Below, in pieces: positions 7,399 to 46,288 of a DNA stretch of 64,000 nucleotides. Position 1 is the first letter of the stretch. Each line of letters opens with the position of its first letter. A program made the position numbers and the translations under genes. The notes under the pieces are model-generated. The model searched no databases. It worked only from the letters and a program-made list of their open reading frames with translations, and had not been told where the DNA came from. The stretch is taken from positions 278,718-342,717 of the forward strand of contig CAXKVV010002169.1 of NCBI GenBank assembly GCA_964058805.1. The letters are read 5' to 3'. The DNA comes from Schoenoplectus triqueter (Eukaryota; Streptophyta; Magnoliopsida; Poales; Cyperaceae).

Positions 7399-10300
7399 TC
7401 AATAAATAAACACAAGAGGGACATGCGATATGAGGTGCCAATCTTCACCAATTTCTCGTGTACAGCGTTTGCCTAGCAGTGGGCAATCATCAATTACAAT
7501 CCATTCCAAAGCAGTGAGGTGTTGGATGGAAAGGGGAAGGGAATCAAGGCCTGGGCATTTACCAATTGTCAACCTCTGAAGAGATTTAAGTTCCCCTAAC
7601 CACTCTGGTAACTCATTTAGATTTTCACAATTATCAATTTTCAGTTCACGAAGACTGGAGAGCTGCGTTAAGCTATGGGGTAATTGTTCCAGATTGTTGC
7701 AGTTCTGGATACTGAGTTCATTAAGCAAGTTGAGATGATGCAACAACTTCCACCCATGTGATGCTGTAATATCAGCGATAGTTACCTTCTTAGTATAGAA
7801 AGTAAGCATTGTTGATGATGATGGCTCAGAAAAGTTAGACGTCACACCCCTTAGTACCGCCTCATTGCTAAAATCTAGTTCTAATTGTTCCACAGATGGG
7901 GGTATAAAAGGGTGGACTTCCAAATTAGGGCAAAGCCAAATTGAAAGACGAAACAATCGGGGACATGCTGGCTTTGGATTGCTGCTTTTCTGGTCTTCAT
8001 CTACTATTGTTGACCAAAGAGAAAGTTTAGGCATATTATATAGAGTCAACGTAGTGAGTGATGAAAAATGCTGGCCCTCAATAGTGAGAAGTTCATCCAT
8101 AGTATTTATGTTCATTTGCTTGAGGTGAGGGAAATCAACCTGGGGGAGGATAGTGCATTTTACTCTTCGAAGTTCCAAGAACGTTAGGTATGGAAATGGT
8201 GAAGAATTGTTCTCCATCACCATCATCCACTGTGGATATATATTTGCAGGATAGTCCCATATGATCAACCTTTTAATATTTTTATTGGGCCGAAGACAAT
8301 CCAGAACATTCAGACTGAAATCAGGGTCCATTCCTTCCCCTCCCCATCGAAGGGTGAGCTCTTCAAGCTCCTGCTTTCTCTCTAATTGAGCCTTCTGGAC
8401 ATCCCAAAGACTTTTCAATGCTCTTAAATTTCTGATAGTAAGCTCATCACCCAAAAGGTCCAGATATTCAAGCTCTGAAATTGAGGCATATTTGTTGTCT
8501 CCATCCAGAACAAACATGTGCAGCTGCTGGAGATGTGTCAACTCTCCTATCCCTCGAGGGGCATTACGTAATGACCAACATCCTTTGTTCTTTAGGTACC
8601 TAAGCTTTGGCATTTTCCCCAGTCCTTCCGGCAACTGCCTCAAGGTGCTACATTGCTGAATGTCAAGACACTCTAGGTTTACAAGTTCATTGATCTGTGC
8701 TGGAAGATTTGAGAGCCTTGTTCCTCGTAGAAAGAGAGAACACAATCGTTTAAGATTAGATATGGACTTGGGTAATGATGTTAACGCTTGACAGTATGAC
8801 AGATTAAGGATGCGAATATTCTCAAGATTACCAATGGAATCAGGCAGGTCTCGAATTTTGCAGGTCGAAAGATTAATGCTCTCAATATATCGGAGAGTAC
8901 CGAGTGAAGTAGGTAGTTGTTGAATTTTGCTGCATTCTAAAAGGTTAAGGGTTTGTAAATTTTGAAGGTTCCCAATTGAACTTGGTAGTTCCGTAATACT
9001 TCGACAATAATATAAATTAAGGTTTCGTAACTCCTTAAGCATTTCAAAAACTTCTTCTGTCAAGGTCTCAAGCTCATTGCAGCAAGAAAGATTTAAAACT
9101 CGGAGCTTTTCAAGTTGACCGAGAGAGATAGGAATACTTGAAATGATTCTACATCCTCTTAGGATCAAGCTTTGAAGGTTCTGACAACTACCGATAGAGG
9201 CTGGTAAAGTTTTAAGTGATCCGCACCATGAAAGATCTAGTGTTCTCAAGTTGCAAAGTTTACCAATATCACTGGGCAGAGCTAGAAGTTGTTCAGAATC
9301 TTTTACATGTAAAGACTGCAAACACCAAAGGCTACAAATTGCTTCTGGAAGCTCTCGGCATTTAAGCTTTGAAATCCAAAGGTATCTCAACATTTTCAAC
9401 TTTATTATTGACATTGGAAATGGTATGGAATTTGTTGGATCTAGAACAAGTGTCCGTAAACATTTAACCTTCATCTTCTTTATGAAATAATACCTCATTT
9501 CTGAAATTCCATTATCAATAACAAACTTACCCTTATAGATATAAAGACCACGTGCCTTTTGCATGATACTCATGTGCACCTCTTGTTTGCAGTCTACCAG
9601 GCACAAATATCGACAAGATTTATGGAAATCACTAGTTGGTATTGCCTTTGCATGTTCTGTGATATATAGATCATCACCAGCAATGGATTTAGCCAGGTCA
9701 TGAACTAGGTCGTGCATCCTGCATGTAACCACATCTGTATTCTCATCTTTGACAGGATCCTGAAGGAAAGACATTTGAAGCAGGTCATTAAAATATCCAT
9801 TTCCAATATCCTCCATGCTGGCATCTCCATCCAACATTGGTATCATACCATGAGCAATCCACTGACCTATCAGCTCATCCTTGTTGATTTTACCACCTTT
9901 AGGCAGTATTGAACAGTATGTAAAGCACTCTTTTAAAATTGGTGATAACTGCATATAGCTCAGTTTAAGGGTTGCAATAACTTCCTTGTTTTCATCTCCA
10001 GGCAGCTTCCATATGTCGCTGTTCCTTACAGCTAACCAGGCATCCAGCCCCTCTTTGTGTTGCATGATGCTTCCTAAATGTTTTACAGCCAGCGGATTGC
10101 CTGCACATTTGTGGACTATATCCTCTGCAATTTTAGCTATTTGAGTGTTAATTTCACTTAGTGGGCTACCAAACACCCTTTGTGTGAATATGTTCATGCA
10201 TACATTTTGGGGTAATCCTCCCAACTTGAAAATAATTGTTGATTTCATTTGTTGACCAACTCTCTCCATCCGAGTTGTTACAATGATCCTACTGTCTTTT

Positions 10301-11187
10301 GCTCCGCTCTCCAAGACCAATTTCAGTTTCTCAAACTTCTCTTGGGCATGGTACCAAACATCATCTAGAACGAGTAAAAATCTAACTCCTCTAATTGCCT
10401 TTGCTAGGTCCTTACCGAGGGAATCAAGACCCTCAGGCACAGATCTTAGACCGGTGGCTGATTGAATCATAGTTCTGAGAACAGCTTCAACATTAAAATT
10501 TTCTGATACATATACCCACATTCTCAATTCAAAATGGTTCTTCACCTCAGTTTCATCATTATACACCATCTGAGCTAGTGTGGTCTTTCCAATTCCACCT
10601 AATCCAACAATTGAAATGATGGAAATGTTCTCTTGGCAATCTGTTCGAACTAACTGATGCATAATTTCATTTTTTTCAGAATCCCTACCAAAGATTGTTC
10701 TTTCCTCAAAAGACCATGTTTCTCGCGTTGTTTGGCCCACCTTGCTCTCGTGAACACATCTTTTCTCTATAAAAAAGTTTCTTCTCTCATCTGCGATGGC
10801 CCCAAGTCTCTCATTAAGTTGACTGATTTTGTGTGCCATCTTTGATCTCTTAATAAGGTTTACCTTCAAAAAAGCCTTACAAAATGTTCCTTTTGCAGCA
10901 CCATGTATGTTGCTCTTTGCAAATTCTGCTTCCATACGGAATTTCTCCAAAAGGTCATCTGCGTCATAGACTACATCTTTTAGTTTCCTCAGCCAATTGT
11001 AAACTGGAATATCATCAATACTACGCTCATTAGCTTCTTGTAGCACATCTTTAATCGTCTTGATTTTACTCTCGAGGGCACAGAGATCGTTGCTAAGACC
11101 CCACAAGAGACCAAACTCCGACAGTAATGGCGAGCTGATCTTATCACACACAATTTTCAAAATAGATGACTCAACCATTCCGGTCAT
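7399..11187 (-). CDS. CC-NB-LRR (CNL) disease resistance protein, RGA-like
   Basis: A single-exon ORF of 1262 residues starting at ATG. Order of domains: Rx-type coiled coil (about 1-135) with an EDVID-like segment, VYDADDLLEKF; NB-ARC (about 165-500) with P-loop GLGGIGKTT (195-203), kinase-2 LLVLDDVW (271-278), RNBS-B IIVTTR (301-306), GLPL-type CAGNPLAVK (361-369) and MHD motif RMHDLVHDL (MHD at 491-493); then more than 20 leucine-rich repeats to the C-terminus. In this family, effector perception by the LRR or CC drives ADP/ATP exchange in the NB-ARC and triggers immune signalling. All core motifs are present with no stop or frameshift; the only oddity is GNPLA in place of GLPLA. Length is normal for RGA-type CNLs. 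It appears intact and functional. Its specificity cannot be read from sequence. Confidence 0.95.
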   Translation of the reverse strand: MTGMVESSILKIVCDKISSPLLSEFGLLWGLSNDLCALESKIKTIKDVLQEANERSIDDIPVYNWLRKLKDVVYDADDLLEKFRMEAEFAKSNIHGAAKGTFCKAFLKVNLIKRSKMAHKISQLNERLGAIADERRNFFIEKRCVHESKVGQTTRETWSFEERTIFGRDSEKNEIMHQLVRTDCQENISIISIVGLGGIGKTTLAQMVYNDETEVKNHFELRMWVYVSENFNVEAVLRTMIQSATGLRSVPEGLDSLGKDLAKAIRGVRFLLVLDDVWYHAQEKFEKLKLVLESGAKDSRIIVTTRMERVGQQMKSTIIFKLGGLPQNVCMNIFTQRVFGSPLSEINTQIAKIAEDIVHKCAGNPLAVKHLGSIMQHKEGLDAWLAVRNSDIWKLPGDENKEVIATLKLSYMQLSPILKECFTYCSILPKGGKINKDELIGQWIAHGMIPMLDGDASMEDIGNGYFNDLLQMSFLQDPVKDENTDVVTCRMHDLVHDLAKSIAGDDLYITEHAKAIPTSDFHKSCRYLCLVDCKQEVHMSIMQKARGLYIYKGKFVIDNGISEMRYYFIKKMKVKCLRTLVLDPTNSIPFPMSIIKLKMLRYLWISKLKCRELPEAICSLWCLQSLHVKDSEQLLALPSDIGKLCNLRTLDLSWCGSLKTLPASIGSCQNLQSLILRGCRIISSIPISLGQLEKLRVLNLSCCNELETLTEEVFEMLKELRNLNLYYCRSITELPSSIGNLQNLQTLNLLECSKIQQLPTSLGTLRYIESINLSTCKIRDLPDSIGNLENIRILNLSYCQALTSLPKSISNLKRLCSLFLRGTRLSNLPAQINELVNLECLDIQQCSTLRQLPEGLGKMPKLRYLKNKGCWSLRNAPRGIGELTHLQQLHMFVLDGDNKYASISELEYLDLLGDELTIRNLRALKSLWDVQKAQLERKQELEELTLRWGGEGMDPDFSLNVLDCLRPNKNIKRLIIWDYPANIYPQWMMVMENNSSPFPYLTFLELRRVKCTILPQVDFPHLKQMNINTMDELLTIEGQHFSSLTTLTLYNMPKLSLWSTIVDEDQKSSNPKPACPRLFRLSIWLCPNLEVHPFIPPSVEQLELDFSNEAVLRGVTSNFSEPSSSTMLTFYTKKVTIADITASHGWKLLHHLNLLNELSIQNCNNLEQLPHSLTQLSSLRELKIDNCENLNELPEWLGELKSLQRLTIGKCPGLDSLPLSIQHLTALEWIVIDDCPLLGKRCTREIGEDWHLISHVPLVFIY

Positions 11188-17290: not shown

Positions 17291-18302
17291 TTTTTTTTAA
17301 TTTTTTATGTAAGCATTATGAATTGCAATGTCAGACTCAGTAGTGTACTAGTAAGGTCTGGTATGAGCATTTCATGGTTCTTAACTGATCATGGTATTTT
17401 GTCTGTTTATTTTTGTTTTTCGGTTGAGTTTTCATTATTAAGCATCTTTGGTAACTTTTCAATTGAGTTTCATGATTGCCAATAATATCTGACATTTTTT
17501 CCCTTTTAAGTGCCCTATTGGATTTCTTGATTGTACAAGAAAATTAGGGGAATTAGTTTCTAACTTTGTCAACTATTCCGATCTCATAGCACATAGATCT
17601 CCATCCTACACTTCTCATCAAGAGGAGCTAAGCACACAGTTCTAAAAGGTAAGAATAACACCAGTTGAAAAAAAATATATTGAAATAAATAACTAAAGAT
17701 GAGAAATGGAATAAATGATAGCAAATAACAAACACAATACTAACATAACTTGTTTATATTTTTAATTCATTTATTTTCCAATTTCGAATAGAAGCCTACA
17801 CAGTCCAACAAACCTGCTCTTCCGTCAACCTTATCCTCAAGCTCAAAAAATCGATCTGATAAGACCTCATCAGGTTAATCACCCACTTGATGGCGTCGAT
17901 GACAAGCTGGTGCTGGTTCTTGACACTGTCATTGGAGACGGACTCGGCCTCGGTGTTATCCGCTGCGAGTGCGTTGAAAGGAAGAAGAGCGAGTGTCGGT
18001 CACAACACGATGAGCAAGATCATACGAGGAAGGAAGAAGAGCGAGTGTCGACCACAACGCGATGAGCGTCGGCCACCTAGGGTTAGTGGAGAGAGGAAGC
18101 GTGAGAGAGATATTTACAGCAAGAGAGAGAAGAGGGATGAGACAACGAAGAGGATAAGAACGAATGTAACTATCTCGACTCGATCAGACGCACACATCAA
18201 AAATAATAAATCGCGATGGAGATCCGATGGCTGTGAAAAAAGAATGACATAGCATGCTTGAGAGCTCGTTGTTCTTCCCTCCCTTTAGGGGGATATATTT
18301 AT
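17291..18302 (-). other. Exon-like GC-rich region flanking the retrotransposon insertion
   Basis: The minus strand at about 17830-17950 reads QLVIDAIKWVINLMRSYQ and could be an exon. The motif GGAAGAAGAGCGAGTGTCG occurs twice (about 17979 and 18032) as part of a roughly 38-bp direct repeat. The stretch looks like the start of a minus-strand gene, and the giant retrotransposon inserted just beside it. The product is not recognised. 17291-17820 is AT-rich with nothing recognised. Confidence 0.3.
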
Positions 18303-18307
18303 GCACT
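18303..18307. repeat. 5-bp target-site duplication, left (GCACT)
   Basis: GCACT directly precedes the left LTR and recurs at 46289-46293 directly after the right LTR. This proves that the two LTRs belong to one insertion. Confidence 0.93.
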
Positions 18308-18623
18308 TGTGCGACCCTTTTTCGCGCGCCACGCACCGCCGCTGGGCGATGGGTTGCGGAAGAAGGACATGGAGATCCCTCCCGAGCGTGCATCTGCTGG
18401 GTGCCGGCTGATTCTGCCGTTTAGAGAGATTTGGATGCACATTCAGGGGGTTTTTTAGTGATTGTGAGTTCTTGTAGATTCCGATGGGCGCAAGCCCCCA
18501 CCGTTAATTACCCTGGGCTACTAACCTCGAGGCACCTCTGGATCTTTGAAAGGGGAAGCAAATAATATAGTTAAAAGATGGTCAAGTGGTCGTCTGGGTT
18601 CACAAAAGGGGTCAATTCCAAGG

Positions 18624-19243
18624 AAGACGAACCTACTACAGATCGGTTCAGTCTTTACCGCTTCAAAAGATAACCTTACTACATATCAGATTAATCTCTT
18701 TGAAGGGGTTTGAGGTGAGTCTACTACAGAACGACTCGACCTCAGTTCATTTAGAAAATGAACCTACTTAATCCTATGGAAGATGAACCTACTACAGATC
18801 GGTTCAGTCTATACCACCTCGAGAGATAACCTTACTACAGACCAGGTTAATCTCTTCAGAGGGGCTTGAGGTGAGTCTACTACAGAACGACTCAACCTCC
18901 GTTGATCTAGAAGATAAACCTACTACAGAACGGTTCAATCTTAACTAGTCAACAACCAATCGCACAAAATACAACTCGAAGCACTGAGCCGGTTGATCTT
19001 GAGGTTGGTGAATCAGGAGAAGGGTGGATATGGCCCACGTGTTTCTTCTCACCGATCTTCTAGATCATGAATTCGAAGCACTAAGCCGATCCATAAACCT
19101 AGGAAACACAGTTACACACAATGTCAAACCTGAAGCACTGAGCCAGCTTAACATTGAGGCATGTGTTAGTGAAGGAACCTACCTACAGAACGGTTCACAT
19201 TCACTGTTTTGTGGATGAATCTACTACAGAACGATTCAATCTC
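18624..19243. repeat. Covarying hairpin array, left LTR (nine hairpins)
   Basis: Nine inverted repeats share a plus-strand loop close to TACTACAGAAC and an arrangement of inner stem, single unpaired base on the 3' side, then outer stem. Starts are near 18624, 18667, 18712, 18780, 18823, 18868, 18911, 19168 and 19212. Inner stems include GAACC/GGTTC, AACCT/AGGTT, GAGTC/GACTC and GAATC/GATTC. Outer stems include AAGAC/GTCTT, GAGAT/ATCTC, GAGGT/ACCTC and AAGAT/ATCTT. The first six form two tandem units of about 156 bp. In the element RNA (minus strand) the loop would read GTTCTGTAGTA. Function unknown. Confidence 0.8.
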
Positions 19244-19299
19244 ACGATCTCGGGAGATGAACCAGAAGACAAACTTATCGACGGATGAGTTCAGTCTTG

Positions 19300-19885
19300 C
19301 TAGCTCAAAGGGTCATGAATTACTTGTTCATGACACCGAGTCATTAAGATGTCACTTCTCTCAGACATCGTAATGTTCATATCTCTTGGAATCGACATAT
19401 CTCTTCATGTTGATGTCGCAGCCTTGGTCATTCTTCAGGGGGCGTCAAGATGTTCTTGTCCCGACTAATCATTCTATATGTTGCATTACTTGTGCAAAAT
19501 TACTATGTTGCCCTACACCCCTCGTGTGAGCGTATTTAATCATGAGTTACTTGCTCATGGTAATGAGTCATTATGATGTCACTTCTCTCGGACATCGTAA
19601 TGTTCTTCTTCCTCAGAGTCGACATATTTCTCCATGTTGATGTCGCAGCCCTGGTTATTCTTCATCAAGTGTCAAGATGTTCTTGTCTCGACATATCTTC
19701 TCGTGTTGCTGTCCAAGCCTTAGTTATTCTACGTTAAGATGTTCTTGTCTTAACATATCTTCTCATGTTGCTGTTGCAACCTTGATTATTCTTCGTCAAG
19801 ATGTTCTTGTCCTGACTAATCGTTCTAAATGTTATATCATGCGTGCAAAAATCCTCATGTTGCTCCACACCCCTTTGTGTGAGCA
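19300..19885. repeat. Second inverted-repeat field, left LTR
   Basis: About 200-bp imperfect tandem units carry short hairpins: GATGTC/GACATC (near 19350 and 19571), CATGAG/CTCATG (19543), CGACAT/ATGTCG (near 19393 and 19620) and CACAC/GTGTG (near 19868). The same segment is present in the right LTR with few changes. It continues the structured region begun at 18624. Confidence 0.6.
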
Positions 19886-22879
19886 TATTTGTTCATCTCC
19901 AAAATGTAAAAAGCTTATTACATAATATCTTCCATTATTATCTCTATTATAAAGATGATTTTATTTATTATTATTTTTTTTATTTTTAAACTCTATTTAT
20001 TTCTATAGAAAATTATTTACAAAAATAATAGGAAATGGGTTAGCTATTAACTAGAATTTTATTTATATTTTTTTTGGGATTTTATAATAGCTAAAATAGT
20101 AGAATTTTATTATTTTTTTTTAAGCTCTATTTACTTTGTAGAAAATCACTTACAAAATAATAGAAAATAAAATGGCTATGATTTTATTTGTATTTTTAAA
20201 ATATTTATAATAGCCAAAGTAATAGAATTTCATTATTATATTTCATTATGTTGAAACATTATTCATTATGTAGAAATTATTTACAAATCAAAAAGGTGAT
20301 TAGCTATATTATTTTTATTTTATTTTATTTCTAGGATCTATAATAGCTAAAAGAAAATCATTATTAATATTCTATAGTTTTTTATTATATATATTTTTTT
20401 ATTATTTCTATTTATTATCTATAGAAAAATATAAGATTTTTTTATTATTATTATCATTATTTGAAAATAGCCATAAGGGATGGAATTCATTATATTCTTT
20501 ATTACAACTATTATTTTTATTGCATTTTATCCATCAAAAATATTTTTATTGTATATTTGTATAGAAATAACAAAAGAAATGCAATTCATTTTATTATAAA
20601 ACTATATTATCATTCTTTATTATAGAAGAAAATGCATTTACTATCTATTACCATGGATATATATATTTTTGTATATTTTGTACTATTTATTTTTATTATT
20701 ATTTTTTTTACAGAAAAATATCAACATAATATCTATTATTATTTATTTTATTTATCAAAGAATAGAGCTAATCTTATTATCTATCATTGCATATTATTAT
20801 TATCATTATTATTTCATGAAAATCACTTGAAAAATCAGTAAAATATATCTAACTATTATTCATGATTTTATTTGAATTTTTGGAATTTTTATAGTATTTA
20901 AAATGACAAGTCAAAGCTAAGTCAAATATATCAATATATGTAATGTCTTTTGCTTTTAAATTTTTTCAACATGATTATATTTTCAAAGCTGGAATATTAT
21001 TATATAGAAAAATAGTATGAAAAATAAGGAAATTTTAGAAACAAATTTGAGTTAATTTGGAGTTCAGGAGCATTTCCAAATGATTTATTTACTCTATATC
21101 ATTAATATTCTGTTATTATTTAATTATTGGGCCTAATCTGGGCCGTCAGATCTATATCAAGATTGGCGCCTATCTTTTATTTAACTCCGTTCTTATTTGG
21201 GCCGCCAGATTCACTTCAAGATTAAACCCCACAAGATGTAAGGCCCAGATTCATTCTGTATCTTTATTTAAAACAGTGCTTTATTTCAAACGTCCGATCT
21301 CTTCAAGATCCACACACGCGCATCAATATCCGTGCTGCCGCGATTCTCTGACTCTCCAGTCAACATAAGCTCCAAGATTCGTGCCATTGGCAGCGCCGGC
21401 GACTGCGGCCATCTCCCTCCGATCAGGCAACTACCCTAGTGTCGTCTTGCCATGGAGAGTCATTCTACGGCGTCTGATCGACGATCTATCCGGTGAATCG
21501 TGATGTATGCCACTACCAGATGAACTAATTTGGTACCAGTCGGTACCGAGTTTCATATCCCGTAAATTCAAAGCAATTGATCATCTTTTCCAACAATTAG
21601 TCACTCAATTAGTATCGTACATACATGTAAATGCCTTCTAACACAATTAGAACGATTCAAATTGGTCTATAACTCCATTACTTGGGATAATTGCTGAAGT
21701 GCAATAGAGGGCGTCGGTACCGATTGCAATTTACTTCAAATTCTTGTTATTCATTGATCAATATTGTCATTATCATGCACCAGCAATTGGACTCCCTTGG
21801 CTCATGGACATGGTTCTCCAATTCTGTTATCCCTTCTGTTGCGATGTGGGCCCTGTTTTAAAGAATCCAAAGCTTATTCCTTTGATTGTTGACCATGTTT
21901 GACTCATCTCTTTATCTGTTGCTAGAACCTTCTAGAGCATCTAAACATACTATATATACTCACTCTAATGCATCTGAGGCACCCTTCTGCTTTCTGCCAT
22001 TGTTATTTTCTTTCAAAGCTCAAAGCTTCATCACCCGATTCCACCTCTTGGCTCAAGTCACATCTCCATCGTTCAATTGATAATCTCCATCATCTAAACA
22101 ACATCGTGTAGGTATGCAGAGGCTATAAGCATTGCCAATTCGAGTTTACAGCACAGAGTTTCAATTTTCATCCATTTGCCCGATTTCATCACTTCATCTC
22201 AATTACTTCAATTCATCCCATAATTGCTGCTCCTTTCTTCATCTACAGCGTCGCCTAAGTGAATAGAAGGAGTCTGCATCATCAATTTTTGATTTTGAAG
22301 TAGGAATTGAAGTGCTTCATTAATTGCCCGAGGTATTCATCTCTTTCAATCACCATATTCACTTCTTATCCTTCAATTCTGATTATTCACACATCTTCTC
22401 CAATGCATAGGCTAGCTCTAGGCGAAAGGAATTGAAGTTGTGAGCTTTGGAGAGCTTGATCACCTCTAATGGCGCCTTCTGCATCGTCGAGAAGAAGAAA
22501 GAAGAGAGGGAGGGGAGAAGGAGAAGAGAGGGAAGGAGGCGCGCCTGGCGCACAGAGTCCACAACTAGGTGGGGCCCACAGTCAGAGGAGCAACACAGAT
22601 AAGCCAGGTGCACATTCCCTTTTCTTTCTCATTTAAATTTCTGCTTGAACCTGCATATAGACTTGGCTCATAGTCATCTGCATAGGCTATACACTCATGA
22701 ACCTTACAAATGGGCCCCACGTGTAAGCATCTGAGTCTCGGCCCATTAGTCCAGTTATGGATTGATTAATCCCTTGCTTAAGTTTAATTGATCTGACTTG
22801 GCACATCCTGATAGGTCCACTTGTTTAATCAATCCATTAATCATCTGCATTAGTGTTAAGCATGCTGAGGTGGCTCTGT

Positions 22880-23140
22880 AGTGTAGTGCCATGTGGCTTA
22901 ACCCTCTGTGATGTGGCACCAATGGCCAGCTGCCATATGGCACTGGAGTGTTGAGGTGTGATGCTGTGGTGTTGCCATGTGGCATATGGAAGGGTGAGGT
23001 GGGCCTGTCAGGTCTTGCCACGTGGCATGTTGGTGGGGCCCACATGTCAGGTCAGTATGGTGGTGGGGCCCACATGGCTGAGGTGGACCAATAGGGTGCT
23101 GACACGTGGCATGAGGTGGCCCAGTGAGATGCTGACACGT
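22880..23140. promoter_or_regulatory. G-box/ACGTG-rich segment in the left LTR
   Basis: GCCACGTGGC, two GACACGTG motifs and several GCCATGTGGC and GGTGGGGCCCACATG blocks cluster within 260 bp. CACGTG cores are binding sites for plant bZIP and bHLH factors and are palindromic, so they could act for either strand. The right LTR has the same cluster at about 44600-44855. Regulatory use is an inference. Confidence 0.4.
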
Positions 23141-23909
23141 GTCACACCCTCTCTCTTCTCTGATTATGTATATGCGTGTTTAGGATCCCCAGTTTGCACC
23201 CAGATAAACCCTTGATTGAATCTCAGCCTTTGATCTTCTATTTTTTAATCTGTTTATCTTCCCTGAATTTATTCTGATAGCTCCACTTATCCAAAAATCA
23301 TGAAAATTTCACCAAAAATCCCTAAATTCATGATGATCATCCCTGTAATTTTTAATTCCATTTTTACCCTTCCTTCTCTGAATTAAAATTTTTTTATCCA
23401 TAAAACCCTATTTCTTCTGAATTAATCCCAGATTTCATTTGTAGCTCAATGTCTCTGCCAATTATCTCTCTCCTGCAGAAACCACCCTAACCAAATACCA
23501 ATTAGACTTATATTGATATTCATTAGGGTTTGATCTGATCAACAGTTGATTACATGTCAACAGTTGATACAAATCTAGACTTGATCAGATGGTTGCTCCC
23601 AGCTTTGGCACCTGATCAGTCTTGTGAAATTGACTTTCAATCCCTTAACATGAGGGTGACTTGGTCAAAGAACTGACTACTTATCAGTAATTGATACAAA
23701 TCAAAGCATGGTTAGGTGGTTGCTCACAGCTTTGGCACCAGGTCAGCCTTGAAAGCAAAATCACATTTGGAATTTCTCATGACTAGTTGTATCAGAATAC
23801 TAGCTTGGCATTGACATCATTTCATGTAGCATAGGGATTATACTGCTTCAGCTCCTTTCTAGGGTTTGCTATAGTGATAGATTCTCAGGGTTCAATTCTG
23901 ACTCCTTTA

Positions 23910-24400
23910 ACAGGTCACTGAGGTGTGGGGTCCACCTGTCAGTGAAAATGGTCACATGGGTGACTCGTCAGATAGGCTAGGTTTATATTGTTAGGTCCAT
24001 CTACAAGGGACTGCCAGGTGGGTCCCACTTGTCAGAGAAAATGTAATCAAATGGCTGACCCGTCAGGAGATTTTCTCTCTCCGAAATCTCCCGAGGGTCA
24101 GCCACCTCGAATGAGTAGGAGGTGGTGGAGTATTTATATCCTTGCTCCGCATTTAGGATTTCCTTGTGGGCTTAGTGCTTAACCTCTGTTCCGGGTTGAT
24201 TAGTTTCCTTAGCAAAATGGGCTAGGTCCATGTCATTGGAGCTGCTCATAAGGGACTGCCATGTGGGTCCCACTTGTCAGAAAAGATATAATCACATGGT
24301 GACACCCGAGAGATCTCCTCTCTCCCTCGATCCTCTCGGCTGTCACTCATGCTGAGTGGATAGAGAATAGTGGGGTATTTATACTCTTCACTTCATGCCC
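23910..24400 (-). promoter_or_regulatory. Duplicated TATA-box promoter blocks of the LTR (left copy)
   Basis: Two blocks of about 245 bp are related: both contain GGGACTGCCA, GTGGGTCCCACTTGTCAGA and, further on, GTATTTATA. On the sense (minus) strand each carries TATAAATA, at 24376-24383 and 24131-24138. A third partial block starts near 23913 (GGTCCACCTGTCAGTGAAAATG). The first TATA lies only about 190 bp from the sense start of the LTR. The identical pair in the right (5') LTR is at 46096-46103 and 45851-45858 and would drive the genomic RNA. Promoter use is inferred, not shown. Confidence 0.55.
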
Positions 24401-24592
24401 AGCATTCCATTGTGGGACTAATGGATTCATTCCGGGGTTAAGCAGCGACCTCTTCTGATCAGTAGGCCATCTCCTTCCTTGCTTTCCCTTCTCATGATTT
24501 ATTATTAATCATTGATTTTATTTTCATTTATTCATCTACTCATCCTTGAAATTTTTCAAGGGTAAACAAAGAGCCACCCACCAAGACGGGCC

Positions 24593-27500
24593 TTGAACGC
24601 TCGAAAGGCTTGTCTTGGTGCATTGTTCCTTATCGTCTATCTCTTCATTTCTCATGACGTCTTCTCTTCTTCGGGCATTGTAGTTTCTTCTCATGACGCC
24701 ATTCCGCGTCGCCCCTCGAGTCACTACCATTCTTTTTACGAGGATCCTAGTGATTGGACTCCTCTCGTCTCAGCCATCCGAGCGACTCCTGTCTACCCGC
24801 GAGGCGGCGGTTTATTCTTCAGAGATGATCAGCCTCATGACATCATGCCCCTTCAGCCCTTAGGCATTGCCTCTATGGCTCCTTTGACACATCTCCTGGG
24901 CAAGGAGATTATTGACGGGGAGGCTCACAGATGGACTACTGCTCCCTTTATCACTCCTCTAGAGTGTCATGGCTATCAGCTAGAGTGGACCCGGTATATG
25001 CTCATGCGGGAGAGGACTCTGCTCAGGCGAGCCGGGATATATGACTCGGTTTTCTTGTCGATGTTTCATTATCATATCGACACACCCTGGCTACGGGCCT
25101 TTTGTGAGAGGTGGAACTACTCCACCAACACTTTGTTTATTGACGATCGGGAGCTGACTCCGACCCTCCTGGAGATACAGCAGTTGACCGGGCTGCCGGT
25201 CTTTGGCCATTTCTATGACGAGTTCATGGTCTCACCCGCTGACTCGGGAGACTTCACTCGATTCCCGCCTTCTTTGCAGAGGACTTATGAGATCTATTAT
25301 CATCTACGGAGGGGGCATCCCGGAGTTCCATTCAGACATTGGATCGCCTATTTCACCGATCGGGTCCATACTCGCCCTACGGGTTTGGCTTCCACTAGAG
25401 ATCCATTTGGTACAGGTCGGCTCGAGATTCATCATGACAGCCCCATCCCTTCTCAGGATACCCTGTGTTCACATGACGTGGATCGGGAGACTTATCTGAC
25501 TGCCTTCATTTCTTGGTGGATCTGCTATTTCTTATTGCCTAGCTCCCCCGCATACACCATTCTGCCTTCGGTGTTTATCATGGCGAGCCTGATCGCGCGT
25601 GGCGACAGGATTTCTTTGGCCGTGCCTGTACTGGCCAACATTTATAGATGCCTCCGCGGTCTGACTTCATCTCGTAGTCCTTCACAGTGCCAGGAGCTGA
25701 TTCCATGGCATCTGATTAGCGGATGGCTCCATTTACACTGATCTGGCTCATATGATCCCGGCATGACAGTTACGCTACGGGGCCGTCTACCCTTATTGAG
25801 TGACTTAGCTGGGGTGCAGCCAGCTTCATTGACTCCGGAGGCTGCTCGGTATAGATTCTTCAAGAGCCGAGACCATCTGCGCTTCTCTCGGGATAGATCA
25901 GTGGCCCGTGGGGCAGCTAGGGTTGCCGACAGGATGGTGATTGACGGCAGAGTTCCCTCTTCTGACTCTTCTAGCATCCGAGCCAGGCCTATCGATTTGG
26001 AGTACCTGATCAGTATTCGTCAGGGCTTTCTTCCTCTCAGATTGGGCGATTATATGTTCATTGAGCCCTATTCGCCACATCGATGCGCACATCAGTTTGG
26101 CTTGGATCAGGATATTCCAGCGCCTCTTCTCCGCCCTATATCACTGGCGGCCGATTTGGAGGGTATCGGATGGTGCTACACTCACCTCTTCCAACTAGGC
26201 ACGAGCACTCGCTATCAGATGGTATCCACCTCTAGGGCTTCCACCTTCACGAGGCGTTATCAGCAGTGGTATTATGAGGCCATTCGCTCTTACCAGTCGT
26301 ATACTCCTCCGGTGGTTGCCCGGAGTACATGTCCGCGAGATGGCCAGCCTCTATTAGATGGTACTGTCTCACGTGATCGCAGCCCTTTCCCGGCCATTGC
26401 CGCAGAGCCTGTCGATTTTCAGGGTTTAGACAGCCGATTTTCTCATGCTCCTGTTAGGACTATTCTCACAGGTACACTTCATCATCCCTTTCAGGTTATT
26501 TCCCTTTGATAAGTCTCATCTCATCTCGACCAATTCTCTTTTTGATTCAGTGTTGGCTTACGAGTATGATCACGCGGAGCCCGGGTTCTCAGTCCCTCGT
26601 CCACGAGTAGTTGGCGTTCATTCTCAGCCACATATTGAGCCACCGGCTTCAGCCGCCATGGGGAGAGATCGAGACAGCGCCTCTCAGCCACCTTCCCCAT
26701 CTTCTTTTCCTTCTCCCACTCCGGGTGATTTTCTTTACTGACTCGCCTATTCTTATTCGGGCGCACTTCATTTACATCTCTAATTAAGGTTTATTTTCAG
26801 CTCGTGGGACATCTCCTGTAGAGGCAGCCCGAGATGACATTATAGCAGATCCATCGGCGCCGGCGGGCACTGCCCTCTCAGGATTCTGCACCGACCTTGC
26901 CGTCGCAGGTTCGTGTGCTTCATTTAATACTTAGTTGCCAGTATGCACTAGTATTTTCATTCTTACATGTAGATTTTACAGGCCCTGAGGCCGATGACAT
27001 GGCATCTCCACACCGCTCGGAGTCTTTTTTCTACGACGGTCCTGCCTCACCGTCGATTTTACTAGTACCCACTGGGGATGGTGACTCCTTTGATGTGGTT
27101 CTGGGGTCGGTGCTCACTCTTGTACGATCAGAGGAGGCTTCTTTAGAGCAGGGGAGTCCATTAGCTGTCGAGCCCGCAGGCGACGAGCCGCTATTGATCG
27201 AGGGAGGGCTATCTCATGCCTCTTCATCTCCCGATGGGCAGCCTCTCATGGCTATAGATGGTGGAGTCTTATCAGATACTCGAGTGGAGGACTCGACTGA
27301 GCGGGTTGCAGTCGATTATGACTCGGAGCTGGATGAGAGTTGGCTGGTGGAGCAGCTATTCGACAGCCCAGAGACGGAGGTTCCGGCTAGCGAGGGTCTC
27401 GCCGAGCCTCATGCCTCTCCCGGTACCTTATATTTCCTTTGTCATTTGCCCGTATTTTATTTTTCATGTACTTATGCTTCTTCATTTTATTTTGTAGCCG

Positions 27501-30005: not shown

Positions 30006-33000
30006 CTATGTGTAGTACTTCTTCAGATATCGCCCGTTAATCGGTGGCATGGGCCTTTCACCTTCATGGTCTATGAGTTGGTATGCGCCGCCCTCGTATA
30101 CCTTCTCAATTACATATGGCCCTTCCCAGTTCGGAGAGAATTTTGGGCCGATGTGCCGGCCAATGATCGGCCTCTTAAGGACAAGAACAAGCTCCCCTTG
30201 TTGAAATGCCCTGACTCGCGCCATTTTGTCATATGCCCTTGCCATTTTTGCCTGATATATCTCAAGATTCTGCTGGGCTATCAATCTCTTCTCGTCCATG
30301 GCATCCAACTCGTCCAATCTAAGTTGTTGGCATTCATCCATGGTCATGTCATTTTGCATAGCCACCCGCAATGACGGTAATTCCACCTCAAGAGGGAGAA
30401 CGGCTTCAACCCCAAAAGCCAGAGAATACGGGGTAGCTTGCGTAGGCGTTCGGTACGTGGTCCGATAAGCCCATAATGCCTCCTGTAGACGATTATCCCA
30501 GTCTCGTTGGTTGCCGTCCACGGTCTTCTTCATGATATTTATTAGGGTTTTATTAAAGGCTTCGGCCAGGCCGTTGGATCTCGGGTTGTAAATGGACGAG
30601 AATCTCCAGTCAATATTAAATTGCTCCGCTAGGGCATAGACTTTAGAGCTCTTGAAGGCCGTCCCATTATCAGATATTATTCGTTGTGGGGTGCCGAATC
30701 GGTAGAGGATGTGCGTCTTGAAGAACTTAACCACATCGGATGCTTTAACTTCTTTAAGTGGAACGGCTTCGGCCCATTTTGTAAAATAATCTGTCGCCGC
30801 TAGGATGAACCGGTGACCTCTCGACGTAGGGGGATCTATGGGCCCTACTATGTCTGTGCCCCACATATTAAATGGCCAGGATGCTACCGTGGGGTGCAAC
30901 GGGTTTGGCGCTTGATGTATAAAAGGGCCATGTATCTGGCACATGCGGCACTTCCTTGCGTGCTCTTCACAATCAGCCACCATTGTGGGCCAATAATACC
31001 CCATCCGTTTGATCTTTAACTTCATTTTTGGCCCAGACTGATGCGCTCCACACAGTCCAGAATGAACTTCTTTCATAACCTGCTCGGCTTCAGGCCCTGA
31101 TACACATCTCAGCCATAACTGATCATAAGACCTACGGTATAGCGTATTGCCCACATACGCGTATCGTAGTACCCGCTTTCTTAGTTGATCAGCGATTCTT
31201 TTGTCCTTGGGGAGGGTGCCATGCCGGAAATATTCAATGAACGGCTGTCTCCAATCATCATCTTCTTCAGTTATCATTGTTTCTTGGCATTCTATCTTTT
31301 CCAGCCCAGTATTTTTATTATCTGCATCATCTGTTGTTCGACACAATGATAATGGCCTCCTATTGCGGACGATGATGTGGATTTCCGGCTCCGTTGGTTC
31401 ACCCAGCTCCTTGGCGAGTTTGGCCAACGCATCTGCTTCACCATTCACAGCCCTCGTGACCTTCTCAATGGACACATACGGGATTTTCTTCATTAGTTCC
31501 ATGGCCTTTTGGTGATATTGTATTAGTTCCGGCTTTAGGACCTTGTATTCGCCAATTATTTGATTTATTATCAACTGTGAATCCCCAAAGATGCGCACAG
31601 CTTTGATTTCTAGCTCCAGTGATAGCTCTAGTCCGGCGATAAGCGCTTCATACTCTGCTTCATTATTTGTACATGGTTCGGTTAAAGCCAGAGAATGTCG
31701 TATTATCCCGCCTTCCGGGGTCACGAAGACTAGTCCTGCGCTAGCTCGCACAGTTGGGACTCCCGGGCCCGCGATCGGCTTGATTGAAGAAGCACCATCA
31801 AAGTACAACTCCCATATAGGGTTTCCTTCTTCAACATGTAGAGTTTCCTCGTCGGGAAAGTCACATTTTAATGGGGAGTCATCTTGAATCGGGTGTACAG
31901 CCAAGAAATCTGCTAGCGCCTGCCCCTTTATCGCCTTTTGCGGTGTATAGGTGATATCGAACTCGGTAAGAATGATAGCCCACTTGGCCAGCCTCCCCGT
32001 CAGCATTGGCCGAGTCATCAGATATTTAAGAGGATCTACCTTGGATATTAAAATGATTTTATGGGCTAGCATGTAGTGCCTCAATTTCTTTACCGCGAAG
32101 ATTAGGGCTAAACAATGCTTCTCAATCGGTGAATACCCGTGTTCTGCCCCTACCATCATGCGACTTAAGTAATATAGCGCATTTTGATTATCATCCTGGT
32201 TTTCTTGTGCCAACAGAGCTCCCAAGGATCCATCCAGGGCGGTTGTATATAGAATGAGTTCCTTCCCGGGTATGGGCGCTGCCAATACTGGAGGGTTGAG
32301 TAGATATGCCTTGATTTCTTCAAAGGCTCGCTGGCACTCACCATCCCACTTAAACGGGATATTCTTCTTAGTCAGCCGGGTGAAGGGTTGGATTTTACCC
32401 GATAGATTGGCTATGAACCGCCTAATGTACGCCAATTGTCCTTGCAAAGATCGCAATTGCTTTAGATTCTTCGGCGGGGATAGTTCAGTGATTGCTTTGA
32501 TCTTGCCCGGGTCTATCTCAATTCCCCTATGGCGTACCACAAACCCCAGAAATTTACCAGATGATACCATGAATGCGCATTTCAACGGGTTTAATTTGAG
32601 CGCATGTTCTCTCAGGCGGTTGAAAACGACCTCAAGATATTGGAGGTGTTCTTCATATGATATGGCTTTGATGACCAGATCGTCCACATAGCACTCCACT
32701 ATCTTGTGAATCAGATCGTCGAATATCTTCGTCATCGCCCGTTGATAGGTGGCACCCGCATTTTTGAGCCCAAACGGCATGACTTTGTAACAATATATGC
32801 CAATCGGCGTGCGGAAAACCGTATGCCTCTCATCTTCTGGCGCCATTTTAATTTGATTATAGCCCGCATAACCGTCCATGAAGGAGAAGACTTCATAGGA
32901 GGATGTATGGTCAATTATGATTTCGGTTACTGGGAGCGGGAAATCATCTTTAGGGCACGCCTTGTTTAAGTCCCGAAAATCCACACAAATGCGGATCTGC

Positions 33001-34595
33001 CCATTTTTCTTTTTAACCGGGACAATGCTAGCCACCCATTCCGGCGTCTCTTCTTCCCGTATGAAGCCTGCGTCGATGAGTTTCTTTGTTTCCTCCACGA
33101 CCTTTTCTTCAAGTTCTATTCTCATTCGTCTCGGCGCTTGTTTAATCGGCTTGAAGGTTGGATCAATTTTTAAGTAATGGACCGCTACGTTGGGATCTAA
33201 TCCAGGCATTTCTTTATAACTCCAAGCGAAGCAGTCCATGTAGTTTTTAAGGAATGTCTTCAACCTGTCAGCCACCTCTTCTGGTAATGATGCGCTTATA
33301 AAAGTTGGTCGTGGGTCTTCTTCCGTCCCCAAATTAATTTCAGCTAACTCATCGACCGTATTAGGTTCCTTTTCTAGCTGTTTCAGAGCATTTTTCAGGA
33401 CTGGGGTATTGTCCTCTTCTGTTTCATTATCTAGCATCTCAACAGAAGTCATGCAATAGCTTTCTTCCATACGGTACTCGTTGAGGGACCCCTCAAGACA
33501 TGCTGCGTCATCGCAGTTATACCCTAATCCCCGAGTGTATTTTATTTTGCCATCCAGGCCCAGGACCTTATTCTGGCCGCCATTCCAGAGTTCATCGAAG
33601 CGCTTGGCCTCGGCCTTGGACACGTCTCTCAGACATTTTGCCCTTTTTGCCAGTTTATACAGCTCCTTTCCAAAGGGATGAGATGCAGCGTCACCGCTCG
33701 TTGCATTCTCCAATTCTTGTTCTATCACCCACTTCTTCCAAGTGTTGTGATCAGGGTTCTTCAGAGACTGGGTTGAATCGCTCTGATAGAAAATTATGGC
33801 ATTGTGGATAATAGTTTTCCCTTTGATGTGCTCTACCTTTGCCGGCACAATAAAGGTCTTTAGGGTTTGAATGTGGTTCATTTCCCTTGGCATAAGGTCT
33901 TTAAAATGCCTTTCAGGAACCACAGTAATCTCTAGCGCTGCCATCTCTTCTTCTATTTCAATGTTCATAACTGAGTTGGAGCGGTAGATTTCTTTGATCG
34001 GCTTTCGTCTCGCAACTTTGGGTTTGCTAGGTACGGGAGTGTGCGAGATCGTATAAGCAACCCCTTTGCCTTTGTTATTCGAGTTGTGCGGGGCTGGGTC
34101 TTGTTGAAAGCTCTTCGGGAGTTGGATTATCCCGTTTCTATGCCCTTCTTCTATAAGGTCTTTGAATACCCAGCATTCTTCAATTGTGTGACCCAGTATG
34201 CGATGATAAGGGCAGAATTCGCCTTCACCGGCTCTTTCTATGTCCGCGGGTCGTTTGCAAACGGGAAGTGTCAATCCGCTCTTTAGGGCCTGCTCAAATA
34301 TCCGAGCCGTTTTATTTTTCAGGAAAGAGTATGGTTTACTCTTCTTGACCTTGAGGGTTTGCATGACGGTCGATTGCTTAGCTTTCATTTCTTCCCCCTT
34401 TGATTCATCTATTATGACAATTACCCGTTTGCCGCTATCGGGTGCTTGCCTTTCGGGGGTCCCGGAACGGGGTTCGCTCGTCATTTCTTTAAGTAGCTCG
34501 GAATTATAGATCGCGGTTTGCAGGTTTTCAATCATTATCATGATTTCATTGTGTTGCGTCTTGATATCCTGCATCACTTCCCATAGTTCAGACAC
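30006..34595 (-). CDS. Retrotransposon Pol: RT, degenerate RNase H, archaeal-type RNase H, integrase
   Basis: Open for 1529 codons, though the first codon of the frame after the upstream TAA gives no clear ATG start (GTG at 34595). Order: a Gag-like module (85-164) with CPYHRILGHTIEECWVFKD; a linker; reverse transcriptase (about 480-690) with YVDD at 636-639; RNase H 1 (about 745-895), where the expected first Asp of the LYxDAS motif is lost (LYTTALDG); a second RNase H of archaeal type (about 925-1062) with D933, E979, D1005, D1055; integrase (about 1085-1500) with HHCC zinc finger and D, D, E signatures TDIVGP, SDNGTAF and GLAEAFN. A dual RNase H marks the Tat lineage. Expression needs stop readthrough, splicing or internal initiation, because Gag-protease lies in the same frame beyond two TAA codons. 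Confidence 0.93.
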   Translation of the reverse strand: MSELWEVMQDIKTQHNEIMIMIENLQTAIYNSELLKEMTSEPRSGTPERQAPDSGKRVIVIIDESKGEEMKAKQSTVMQTLKVKKSKPYSFLKNKTARIFEQALKSGLTLPVCKRPADIERAGEGEFCPYHRILGHTIEECWVFKDLIEEGHRNGIIQLPKSFQQDPAPHNSNNKGKGVAYTISHTPVPSKPKVARRKPIKEIYRSNSVMNIEIEEEMAALEITVVPERHFKDLMPREMNHIQTLKTFIVPAKVEHIKGKTIIHNAIIFYQSDSTQSLKNPDHNTWKKWVIEQELENATSGDAASHPFGKELYKLAKRAKCLRDVSKAEAKRFDELWNGGQNKVLGLDGKIKYTRGLGYNCDDAACLEGSLNEYRMEESYCMTSVEMLDNETEEDNTPVLKNALKQLEKEPNTVDELAEINLGTEEDPRPTFISASLPEEVADRLKTFLKNYMDCFAWSYKEMPGLDPNVAVHYLKIDPTFKPIKQAPRRMRIELEEKVVEETKKLIDAGFIREEETPEWVASIVPVKKKNGQIRICVDFRDLNKACPKDDFPLPVTEIIIDHTSSYEVFSFMDGYAGYNQIKMAPEDERHTVFRTPIGIYCYKVMPFGLKNAGATYQRAMTKIFDDLIHKIVECYVDDLVIKAISYEEHLQYLEVVFNRLREHALKLNPLKCAFMVSSGKFLGFVVRHRGIEIDPGKIKAITELSPPKNLKQLRSLQGQLAYIRRFIANLSGKIQPFTRLTKKNIPFKWDGECQRAFEEIKAYLLNPPVLAAPIPGKELILYTTALDGSLGALLAQENQDDNQNALYYLSRMMVGAEHGYSPIEKHCLALIFAVKKLRHYMLAHKIILISKVDPLKYLMTRPMLTGRLAKWAIILTEFDITYTPQKAIKGQALADFLAVHPIQDDSPLKCDFPDEETLHVEEGNPIWELYFDGASSIKPIAGPGVPTVRASAGLVFVTPEGGIIRHSLALTEPCTNNEAEYEALIAGLELSLELEIKAVRIFGDSQLIINQIIGEYKVLKPELIQYHQKAMELMKKIPYVSIEKVTRAVNGEADALAKLAKELGEPTEPEIHIIVRNRRPLSLCRTTDDADNKNTGLEKIECQETMITEEDDDWRQPFIEYFRHGTLPKDKRIADQLRKRVLRYAYVGNTLYRRSYDQLWLRCVSGPEAEQVMKEVHSGLCGAHQSGPKMKLKIKRMGYYWPTMVADCEEHARKCRMCQIHGPFIHQAPNPLHPTVASWPFNMWGTDIVGPIDPPTSRGHRFILAATDYFTKWAEAVPLKEVKASDVVKFFKTHILYRFGTPQRIISDNGTAFKSSKVYALAEQFNIDWRFSSIYNPRSNGLAEAFNKTLINIMKKTVDGNQRDWDNRLQEALWAYRTTYRTPTQATPYSLAFGVEAVLPLEVELPSLRVAMQNDMTMDECQQLRLDELDAMDEKRLIAQQNLEIYQAKMARAYDKMARVRAFQQGELVLVLKRPIIGRHIGPKFSPNWEGPYVIEKVYEGGAYQLIDHEGERPMPPINGRYLKKYYT

Positions 34596-39198: not shown

Positions 39199-39217
39199 GG
39201 TCCCACCGGGCGTGCCA
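39199..39217 (-). promoter_or_regulatory. Primer-binding site
   Basis: On the sense strand TGGCACGCCCGGTGGGACC begins five bases (GGATC) after the 5' LTR end. It starts with the TGG expected for pairing to a tRNA 3' CCA. The same site with one base change and the same spacer occurs beside the second element (48617-48635). The priming tRNA was not assigned. Confidence 0.75.
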
Positions 39218-39538
39218 GATCCTGTGCGACCCTTTTTCGCGCGCCACGCACCGCCGCTGGGCGATGGGTTGCGGAAGAAGGACACGGAGATCCCTCCCGA
39301 GCGTGCATCTGCTGGGTGCCGGCTGATTCTGCCGTTTAGAGAGATTTGGATGCACATTCAGGGGGTTTTTTAGTGATTGTGAGTTCTTGTAGATTCCGAT
39401 GGGCGCAAGCCCCCACCGTTAATTACCCTGGGCTACTAACCTCGAGGCACCTCTGGATCTTTGAAAGGGGAAGCAAATAATATAGTTAAAAGATGGTCAA
39501 GTGGTCGTCTGGGTTCACAAAAGGGGTCAATTCCAAGG

Positions 39539-40158
39539 AAGACGAACCTACTACAGATCGGTTCAGTCTTTACCGCTTCAAAAGATAACCTTACTACATA
39601 TCAGATTAATCTCTTTGAAGGGGTTTGAGGTGAGTCTACTACAGAACGACTCGACCTCAGTTCATTTAGAAAATGAACCTACTTAATCCTATGGAAGACG
39701 AACCTACTACAGATCGGTTCAGTCTATACCACCTCGAGAGATAACCTTACTACAGACCAGGTTAATCTCTTCAGAGGGGCTTGAGGTGAGTCTACTACAG
39801 AACGACTCAACCTCCGTTGATCTAGAAGATAAACCTACTACAGAACGGTTCAATCTTAACTAGTCAACAACCAATCGCACAAAATACAACTCGAAGCACT
39901 AAGCCAGTTGATCTTGAGGTTGGTGAATCAGGAGAAGGGTGGATATGGCCCACGTGTTTCTTCTCACCGATCTTCTAGATCATGAATTCGAAGCACTAAG
40001 CCGATCCATAAACCTAGGAAACACAGTTACACACAATGTCAAACCTGAAGCACTGAGCCAGCTTAACATTGAGGCATGTGTTAGTGAAGGAACCTACCTA
40101 CAGAACGGTTCACATTCACTGTTTTGTGGATGAATCTACTACAGAACGATTCAATCTC
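39539..40158. repeat. Covarying hairpin array, right LTR
   Basis: The same nine hairpins as in the left LTR, offset by 20915. In the fourth hairpin the outer arm is AAGAC here but AAGAT in the left LTR; this C restores a G-C pair in place of a G-T wobble. In the genomic RNA this field lies in the 5' leader, roughly 0.3-0.9 kb before the LTR end and primer-binding site. Confidence 0.8.
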
Positions 40159-42690: not shown

Positions 42691-43480
42691 CTTAATACTC
42701 TTTATAACACTTATTCAAACCATGATACACATGATTATGCTTATGATCTTCCCTAATTCTCGATCTAAAACTCAATTTCAGAAACGGGACGCGATGGCAG
42801 TATTAGGACTCTAAATCAGTCGAGTTCTCAAGATTATATCTGAGATCAATCGACTCCAAATGATTATATGGACTCTGATACATATAGTGTTAACAAAGAT
42901 TAAGATAATTCCAACTCAAGAATCAAGAATTAACCAATGAATTCAACTGTTACCGAGTTCTCAAGTTGAACTGAGATCGATCGATTTAACAGCTTCATTC
43001 ATCAATCTTTAAGCGAAATTCATCAAAAGAAATGAAAGATTCATACTCTATAAACTTGCAATGCATGAAATAAGGAAGAAAATCATGAAGAAATAGTTGA
43101 AATTTGAAGAAATTCAAGAACAGTACAGTAAAATACTGATATCCAGTGGCAATTACATCTCTAAAGCTCCAATCTTCAAGAATTAAACCCACTAACTCCC
43201 AATTAACAGATAATAGAGTATAAAGCTTACCTTCAGACAAGTAATTGAAGCAAAGGAATTGAGTTCTCAAGTTAAAACTGAGATCAATCAATTCTATCAA
43301 GCTTCTCTCGGTTCTTGCCTCTTTCCTTGCTCTCTCTCTCTCTAGACTCTATATGCAATCTCTAAAGTATTCTCTCTTTATCTCTTATCTTCTGTATCGT
43401 GTGTTCTTCAATTTCCATGGATTAGGGGTTTATATAAGCAATTAAAGAGTGTATCAAAGGGGTTAGAGCTATACACCATC
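42691..43480. repeat. 790-bp segment found only in the right LTR
   Basis: It interrupts the shared LTR sequence and is bounded by CATG on both sides (42687-42690 and 43481-43484). No terminal inverted repeats or TG..CA ends fit the breakpoints. It contains three hairpins with constant inner stem TCTCA/TGAGA and different paired outer stems (42818-42855, 42947-42992, 43256-43294), and a CT microsatellite near 43328. It is either an insertion with a 4-bp duplication, or ancestral LTR sequence lost from the left LTR by deletion between CATG repeats. Confidence 0.85.
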
Positions 43481-46110: not shown

Positions 46111-46288
46111 CTTCATGCCCAGCATTCCATTGTGGGACTAATGGATTCATTCCGGGGTTAAGAAGCGACCTCTTCTGATCAGTGGGCCATCTCCTTCCTT
46201 GCTTTCCCTTCTCATGATTTATTATTAATCATTGATTTTATTTTCATTTATTCATCTACTCATCCTTGAAATTTTTCAAGGGTAAACA

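Follow-up and report, generated by a model that had tools for sequence, protein, structure and literature searches.

An array of hairpins with matched, varying arms and a near-constant loop in the LTRs of a Tat/Ogre-like retrotransposon from Schoenoplectus triqueter

Genomic context and host element

The window, by which we mean the whole stretch of 64,000 nucleotides that was analysed, contains a Tat/Ogre-like Ty3/gypsy element of about 28 kb, encoded on the minus strand, together with the fragment of a second related element. A 1262-aa ORF of the resistance-gene type, with NB-ARC and LRR domains, lies apart from both at 7399–11187 on the minus strand. The LTRs were delimited by self-BLAST, in which 18308–21778 matched 39223–42691 at 99.6%, along with two further blocks. 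The 5′ LTR exceeds the 3′ LTR by about 800 bp, and an extra stretch at 42692–43480 is absent from the 3′ LTR. The main features are as follows.

18308–24568, minus strand: 3′ LTR, from self-BLAST; ends TG...CA, with the target-site repeat GCACT beside it
30006–34595, minus strand: pol ORF, 1529 aa
35010–38474, minus strand: gag ORF, 1154 aa, with a Retrotrans_gag match
39199–39217, minus strand: PBS-like sequence, sense TGGCACGCCCGGTGGGACC, five bases beyond the 5′ LTR end and near-identical in the second element
39223–46288, minus strand: 5′ LTR, from self-BLAST; a second GCACT copy follows 46288
About 48398–49660, minus strand: fragment of the second related element, comprising leader, PBS, R/U5-like block, TATA-like site and then U3

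Within the 1529 residues of pol, RVT_1 (527–686), RT_RNaseH (776–879) and rve (1241–1338) follow each other in the order RT-RH-INT, and a second RNase H domain, RVT_3 (950–1061, E 1.5e-17), is located between RNase H and integrase. We take this second domain to be a marker of the Tat lineage, and its presence and the domain order fit a Tat/Ogre-like Ty3/gypsy element. Tat/Ogre-type elements have very long LTRs, RT-RNaseH with a second RNase H, and extra antisense ORFs, and the present element resembles them in size, in RT-RNaseH plus RVT_3 and in its antisense ORFs. Two ORFs with a plant mobile domain (PMD) adjoin the 3′ LTR at 24593–26509 on the plus strand, antisense to gag-pol, with PMD matches at E 1.3e-17 and, for the second, at E 5.8e-08, which is below the Pfam cut-off.

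Since gag and pol are on the minus strand, the sense RNA corresponds to that strand and the RNA loop of the array reads GNUCUGUAGUA, the reverse complement of the letters in the original prediction, whose orientation has to be turned round. Its assignment of the right-hand LTR as the 5′ LTR is supported by the PBS-like sequence that follows this LTR on the minus strand; the attached claim that the array thereby falls in the RNA leader is doubtful, as set out below.

The hairpin array

Nine loop copies, starting at 18634, 18677, 18722, 18790, 18833, 18878, 18921, 19181 and 19222, were found within 18624–19243, in agreement with the original prediction, the one at 19181 being a variant, ACCTACAGAAC, with two mismatches. 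The predicted duplication in the other LTR was likewise recovered, with the same nine loops at +20915. The hairpins are listed below, with arms in plus-strand letters.

18624–18655, minus strand: H1; inner stem GAACC/GGTTC, outer stem AAGAC/GTCTT, RNA-sense loop GATCTGTAGTA; covariance-model score 52.1 bits
18667–18698, minus strand: H2; in the window, a U.G and a G.U pair in the RNA sense; 44.3 bits
18712–18743, minus strand: H3; GAGTC/GACTC and GAGGT/ACCTC; covariance-model match
18780–18811, minus strand: H4; duplicate of H1; one branch has compensated changes at the pairs 18789/18801 and 18784/18807; covariance-model match
18823–18854, minus strand: H5; duplicate of H2; covariance-model match
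18868–18899, minus strand: H6; duplicate of H3; covariance-model match
18911–18942, minus strand: H7; AAACC/GGTTC on the plus strand, which is G.U in the RNA sense in 60 of 64 copies; covariance-model match
19168–19205, minus strand: H8; loop extended by one base in the window; 23.3 bits at 19171–19202
19212–19243, minus strand: H9; GAATC/GATTC; covariance-model match
19266–19298, minus strand: tenth, degenerate hairpin; stem kept, loop changed; 19.2 bits, E 0.0056
39539–40158, minus strand: whole array, 5′ LTR copy, from loop positions and the covariance model
40181–40213, minus strand: tenth hairpin, copy in the other LTR; 19.2 bits, E 0.0056

The four hairpins for which two perfect five-pair stems had been claimed are present. 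Some of the outer stems pair poorly: of 62 copies of H4, 46 have an A.A mispair, the outermost pair is broken in 60 of the 64 copies of H9, and H8 pairs in its outer stem (AGTGAA/TTCACT) only out of register. Among the nine, H2 shows the lowest regularity across copies. A tandem duplication of 156 bp (18622–18768 and 18778–18924, 87% identical) accounts for part of the array, so that fewer than nine of the hairpins are independent.

The training set of the covariance model comprised 17 hairpins, of which the window contributed eight; the model detected 20 window sites at E < 0.01, ten per LTR, with one more match at E 2.6. A search of 18300–24700 with Rfam 15 returned no covariance-model match up to E 1, which argues against a known RNA family in this stretch. 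Most of the 17 hairpins came from a list that required at least four inner and at least three outer pairs, and the value of 95.3% paired among them is biased since they were picked partly for pairing. In comparison with shuffles, the counts for this set were 0/500 for the covariation score, 42/500 for pairs changed on both sides and 83/500 for pair types.

Neighbouring hairpins of like design

Judged by its sequence, the array is one part of a longer structured LTR stretch, at about 18.6–19.8 kb, made up of several hairpin families built alike. The array hairpins are referred to as family H; the neighbours, which were picked out by eye, are the following.

18964–18998, 19066–19094 and 19118–19158, minus strand: hairpin family G, RNA loop GGCUYAGUGCUUC, each folded singly
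19312–19816, minus strand: hairpins S, T, R, U and V
19312–19334, minus strand: example GTCATGAA-ttacttg-TTCATGAC
19733–19754, minus strand: example GTTAAGA-tgttcttg-TCTTAAC; other U copies pair via G.U in the RNA sense

LTR hairpins with the plus-strand loops TTACTTG, TGTTCTTG and others also have arms that differ yet match; R3 and R4 pair poorly, and some of the other neighbours well. Four G-type hairpins occur in the second element (49163–49194, 49245–49283, 49343–49378 and 49427–49463), with different stems and with loops that are similar, not identical. In all seven G hairpins, also selected by eye, the sense fold is more stable than the antisense fold, by less than 1 kcal/mol in three of them, and for the first (18964–18998) the predicted fold differs from the expected stem.

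Arm matching among genomic copies

Genome counts were taken over 82 Mb of a single genome. The pattern TACTACAGAACG occurred 680 times, against 30 for the pattern read backwards, TACTACAGAACGGTTC 242 times, against 0 for its backwards version, and TACTACAGATCAGTTC 133 times. In viral contigs, TACTACAGANCGGTTC was found in eight stretches with one match each. With the same loop, GAGTC..GACTC occurred 234 times and GAACC..GGTTC 278 times in the whole genome, while the two swapped-arm combinations occurred 0 and 0 times. As such counts include copies by descent, they establish that stems differ and match, not the number of changes.

A total of 118 loci were fetched by loop-bearing patterns, in part also including the GGTTC arm, or by similarity to the array; nine were left out as duplicates, and the window was added. 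These yielded 632 sites that differed from the loop at one position at most and lay in distinct 140-base contexts, selected with no pairing filter. Inner stems were perfect at 420 sites, had four of five pairs at 189 and fewer at 23, whereas random combination of the observed arms would give 103.5 perfect stems and 266.1 with at least four pairs. For the outer stems, 295 were perfect and 428 had at least four pairs, against 69.7 and 234.3 expected. The arm classes at the sampled sites comprised GAACC/GGTTC, GAGTC/GACTC, GAATC/GATTC, AACCT/AGGTT and GAACT/AGTTC. Loop constancy in this set and in the 17-hairpin set is partly by construction because sites were chosen by loop.

Among the inner mispairs of family H, the three most frequent, at 78, 71 and 6 sites, all correspond to G-U in the RNA sense. 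Mispairs that are A-C in sense also occur, in the inner classes GAACC/GGTTT and GAATC/GGTTC (three sites each) and in the outer-stem class GAGGT/ATCTC (19 sites).

Two simpler accounts are disfavoured by these data: plain repeats, by the arm matching (420/632 perfect, no swaps), and a dyad-binding protein with fixed half-sites, by the variation of the arms. A separate observation concerns locus L042, where a 12-bp perfect stem, AGAAATATTGAC/GTCAATATTTCT, surrounds the same TACTACAGAAC loop at 930–1000 within an unrelated tandem repeat; this may be a chance occurrence.

Covariation and constraint on the tree

An alignment of the LTR end from 64 copies was used to score 187 pairs in 22 hairpins (nine of family H and 13 neighbours). 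Loci L047, L061, L062 and L075 were left out for coverage. RNAalifold left much of the region of this alignment unfolded, in our opinion because array-length differences leave gaps, and the pairs were therefore named by hand from the window. From locus set A, four loci were dropped and one was without a match; from set B, 29 were dropped and four were without a match, the latter figure in each case being obtained by subtraction.

In the 64-copy alignment, 16 of 28 same-branch double changes went from one Watson–Crick pair to another, compared with 0–4 in eight slid controls. For family H in 104 copies (91 pairs), eight of 12 double changes were compensated, against 0–1 in the slid controls. 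The neighbours in 74 copies (96 pairs) gave no excess, with four of 10 compensated against 0–5. The eight family H cases are distributed over H3 (three), H4 (two), H5 (one) and H6 (two). The three in H3 fall on one branch of 27 leaves, with 11/32 changes in the hairpin and 20/60 in one flank; they look like replacement by another array unit and are doubtful as compensation. On the branches for H4, H5 and H6 (8, 4 and 8 leaves), the hairpin changes (4, 2 and 2) are the compensated pairs alone. In the remaining case, H6 in L067, there are three hairpin changes, two of them in the pair. These double changes in excess of the slid controls, together with the matched arms and the lack of swaps, bear out the original proposal that structure is kept while stem sequence changes.

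Substitution rates point to constraint on the stems. Changes from Watson–Crick to G-U or A-C in stems numbered 127 in family H and 174 in the neighbours, against 297 and 396 predicted from non-stem rates. The number of changes per site on internal branches rose from 0.30 for loops to 0.505 for stems of family H and 0.75 for other columns. On terminal branches, the corresponding values were 0.64, 0.60 and 1.02, so that loops there change as much as stems, which counts against selected hairpins.

Strand asymmetry and folding

A G-U pair in the sense RNA is an A-C mispair on the other strand, and both arms give matched contexts, so that a surplus of G-U in sense is a sign of selection on the sense RNA. 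Counted by event, the neighbours showed 120 changes from Watson–Crick to G-U and 54 to A-C (expected fraction 0.465, p 2.7e-9), while the lean of family H, 73 against 54, was not significant (p 0.29, expected fraction 0.527). As events at the same pair are mutually dependent, counts were also made by pair. Over all hairpins, 69 pairs favoured G-U and 41 A-C (p 0.0097); the neighbours gave 36:20 (p 0.044), and family H 33:21, which was not significant (p 0.13). C>T changes contribute more to the G-U excess than A>G changes do. Folding of 18600–19320 gave −241.1 kcal/mol in sense (z −7.7) and −217.2 in antisense (z −5.7), with 20 shuffles each. The RNA-level role that had been suggested for the array thus fits the sense-strand G-U lean, although this lean is weak for family H alone.

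Position of the array in the transcript

Two features of the LTR end bear on the position of the array.

18561–18569, minus strand: TATA-like sequence, sense CTATATTATTTG, proposed core promoter; also at the same place in the second element
18308–18540, minus strand: proposed R and U5, in common with the second element

The leader, the PBS and the last ~260 bp of the LTR match the second element (48398–48875) at 73%. The TATA-like site has the same location in the two elements, and shortly beyond it the similarity is lost. This is the pattern expected at a U3/R border, so that transcription probably starts near 18540 and the array, which begins 55 bp upstream of the TATA-like site, probably lies in U3. 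The TATA-like site and the shared R/U5-like block thus suggest a position upstream of the transcription start and make the originally predicted place in the RNA leader doubtful. An array in U3 would be present in the genomic RNA once, near the 3′ end. TATA boxes exist elsewhere in the LTR, and an alternative start is offered by two TATAAATA boxes on the sense strand, at 24383 and 24138, in a tandemly duplicated part near the LTR 5′ end. Conservation among the 64 copies, as the mean majority per 50 bp, was 0.93–0.99 in the proposed R/U5 and 0.84–0.90 at 18608–18757; as it reached 0.97–0.99 at 18908–19107, inside the array region, conservation alone does not mark the border.

Interpretation and alternatives

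To our knowledge, little has been established about cis-acting RNA signals of plant LTR retrotransposons. The hairpins, their matched arm changes and their slow loops are borne out by the comparisons of copies, and action in the sense RNA is moderately supported. We see an even chance that the array consists of RNA hairpins selected in the sense RNA, which show one loop many times to one partner. The 11-nt loop, GNUCUGUAGUA, possibly with a closing G.A pair, would be almost identical in all hairpins, and the stem sequence would be free to drift provided that pairing holds. With transcription starting at ~18540, the array would occupy the 3′ end of U3 and be followed after a short distance by R and the poly(A) site. 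The many loop copies could then form a multivalent display bound by one candidate partner, conceivably Gag of the element or an RNA-binding protein of the host, and such binding might mark the full-length RNA for packaging or 3′-end handling.

Repeats in LTRs are usually taken as promoter DNA, and the units might be cis-regulatory palindromes upstream of the core promoter, with a host factor binding the duplex or extruded DNA. The distance of 55 bp to the TATA-like site is in keeping with this, as are the palindromic motifs upstream of the TATA box in Sireviruses, described in PMC2829016, and the arrays of sometimes palindromic repeats in cis-regions of other transposable elements, described in PMC10760457. 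We nevertheless regard it as unlikely, since a dyad-binding factor would fix the arms, whereas here they vary around a nearly fixed centre, and since a one-strand G-U lean, weak as it is for family H, is unexpected for a duplex or cruciform. Quite unlikely, in our assessment, is a mutational origin, in which template switching in quasi-palindromes or exchange between units rewrites the arms and the loop is kept for another reason. PMC8794818 proposes that template switching creates and repairs stems while sparing the loop; tandem duplication among the array units and the apparent replacement of a unit on one branch also speak for it. This origin predicts neither loops slower than spacers, nor fewer pair-breaking changes than spacer rates imply, nor the sense G-U lean; in H4, H5 and H6, moreover, each double change is confined to one pair and does not extend over a block of neighbouring ones. 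A contribution of template switching to the matching of the arms is conceivable, yet it leaves the slow loops and the strand lean unexplained.

Two further alternatives keep the function in RNA and move it along the transcript. If transcription started near the LTR 5′ end, the array would be in R/U5 upstream of the PBS and might act as a 5′-leader packaging or dimerisation signal. The TATAAATA boxes at 24383 and 24138 and the strong conservation of 18908–19107 are compatible with such a start; it needs an R plus U5 of about 6 kb, and the similarity to the second element ends beyond the TATA-like site, as at a U3/R border, and we consider this very unlikely. Alternatively, the array could serve 3′-end formation, with loops that show UGUA upstream of the poly(A) site and recruit cleavage factor Im (CFIm) at the 3′ LTR only. 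UGUA is used by CFIm and by plant far-upstream elements, and in the 3′ LTR the array would precede R. All 17 aligned hairpins have UGUAGUA in the loop, though a close resemblance to the loop was the criterion by which they were chosen. We regard this role as highly unlikely, as the loop that the hairpins share extends beyond UGUA and the loops of the other hairpin families are different. UGUAGUA may resemble the branch-site-pairing stretch of U2 snRNA.

Returning to hairpins selected in the sense RNA, a possible generalization, which we put forward tentatively and think rather improbable, is that Tat-type elements carry a modular RNA domain at the 3′ end of U3. It would consist of interchangeable hairpin classes with near-constant loops and drifting stems, subject to duplication and loss of units, and would serve as a multivalent docking array that separates full-length RNA from other transcripts. 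The natural stem variants of one motif let RNA and DNA explanations be separated by experiment.

Comparison with known systems

Hairpins that share a common loop on different stems and bind one RNA-binding partner are familiar from retroviral and retrotransposon packaging or dimerisation signals and from the multi-site packaging signals of RNA viruses. The retroviral and retrotransposon ones usually lie in the 5′ leader near the PBS, whereas the present array is probably in U3. Among plant elements, the BII boxes of Tnt1 and the repeats of Tto1, both tobacco copia elements, are U3 tandem repeats that act as promoter elements. They are alike in being tandem repeats in U3; they are sequence-conserved activator sites, and we know of no covarying stems in them.

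Sirevirus (Ty1/copia) LTRs, as described in PMC2829016, carry repeated palindromic motifs clustered upstream of a conserved TATA box, and the likeness lies in many short dyad-symmetric copies at a small distance upstream of a TATA-like box. According to the same source, most of the Sirevirus motifs have a fixed CGG-CCG core and lie in CpG islands; in the array, by contrast, the arms (GAACC/GGTTC, GAGTC/GACTC and so on) vary and lack this core, and the 11-nt centre is nearly fixed. Further differences are the lean of mispairs to G-U in the sense RNA and the domain order, which is that of Ty3/gypsy. Among the papers listed from the literature covered, mostly outside subscription journals and judged by titles and abstract openings, no paper on covarying LTR hairpin arrays was found.

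Other repeats in the window

Repeats were also observed outside the element. Long imperfect palindromes of a foldback or MITE-like kind are found at 57978–58381 (about 400 bp, 87%) and 46864–47218 (355 bp, 79%). Direct repeats of 168 bp at 58816–58983 and 59256–59423, 97.6% identical and 272 bp apart, possibly delimit a TRIM-like element.
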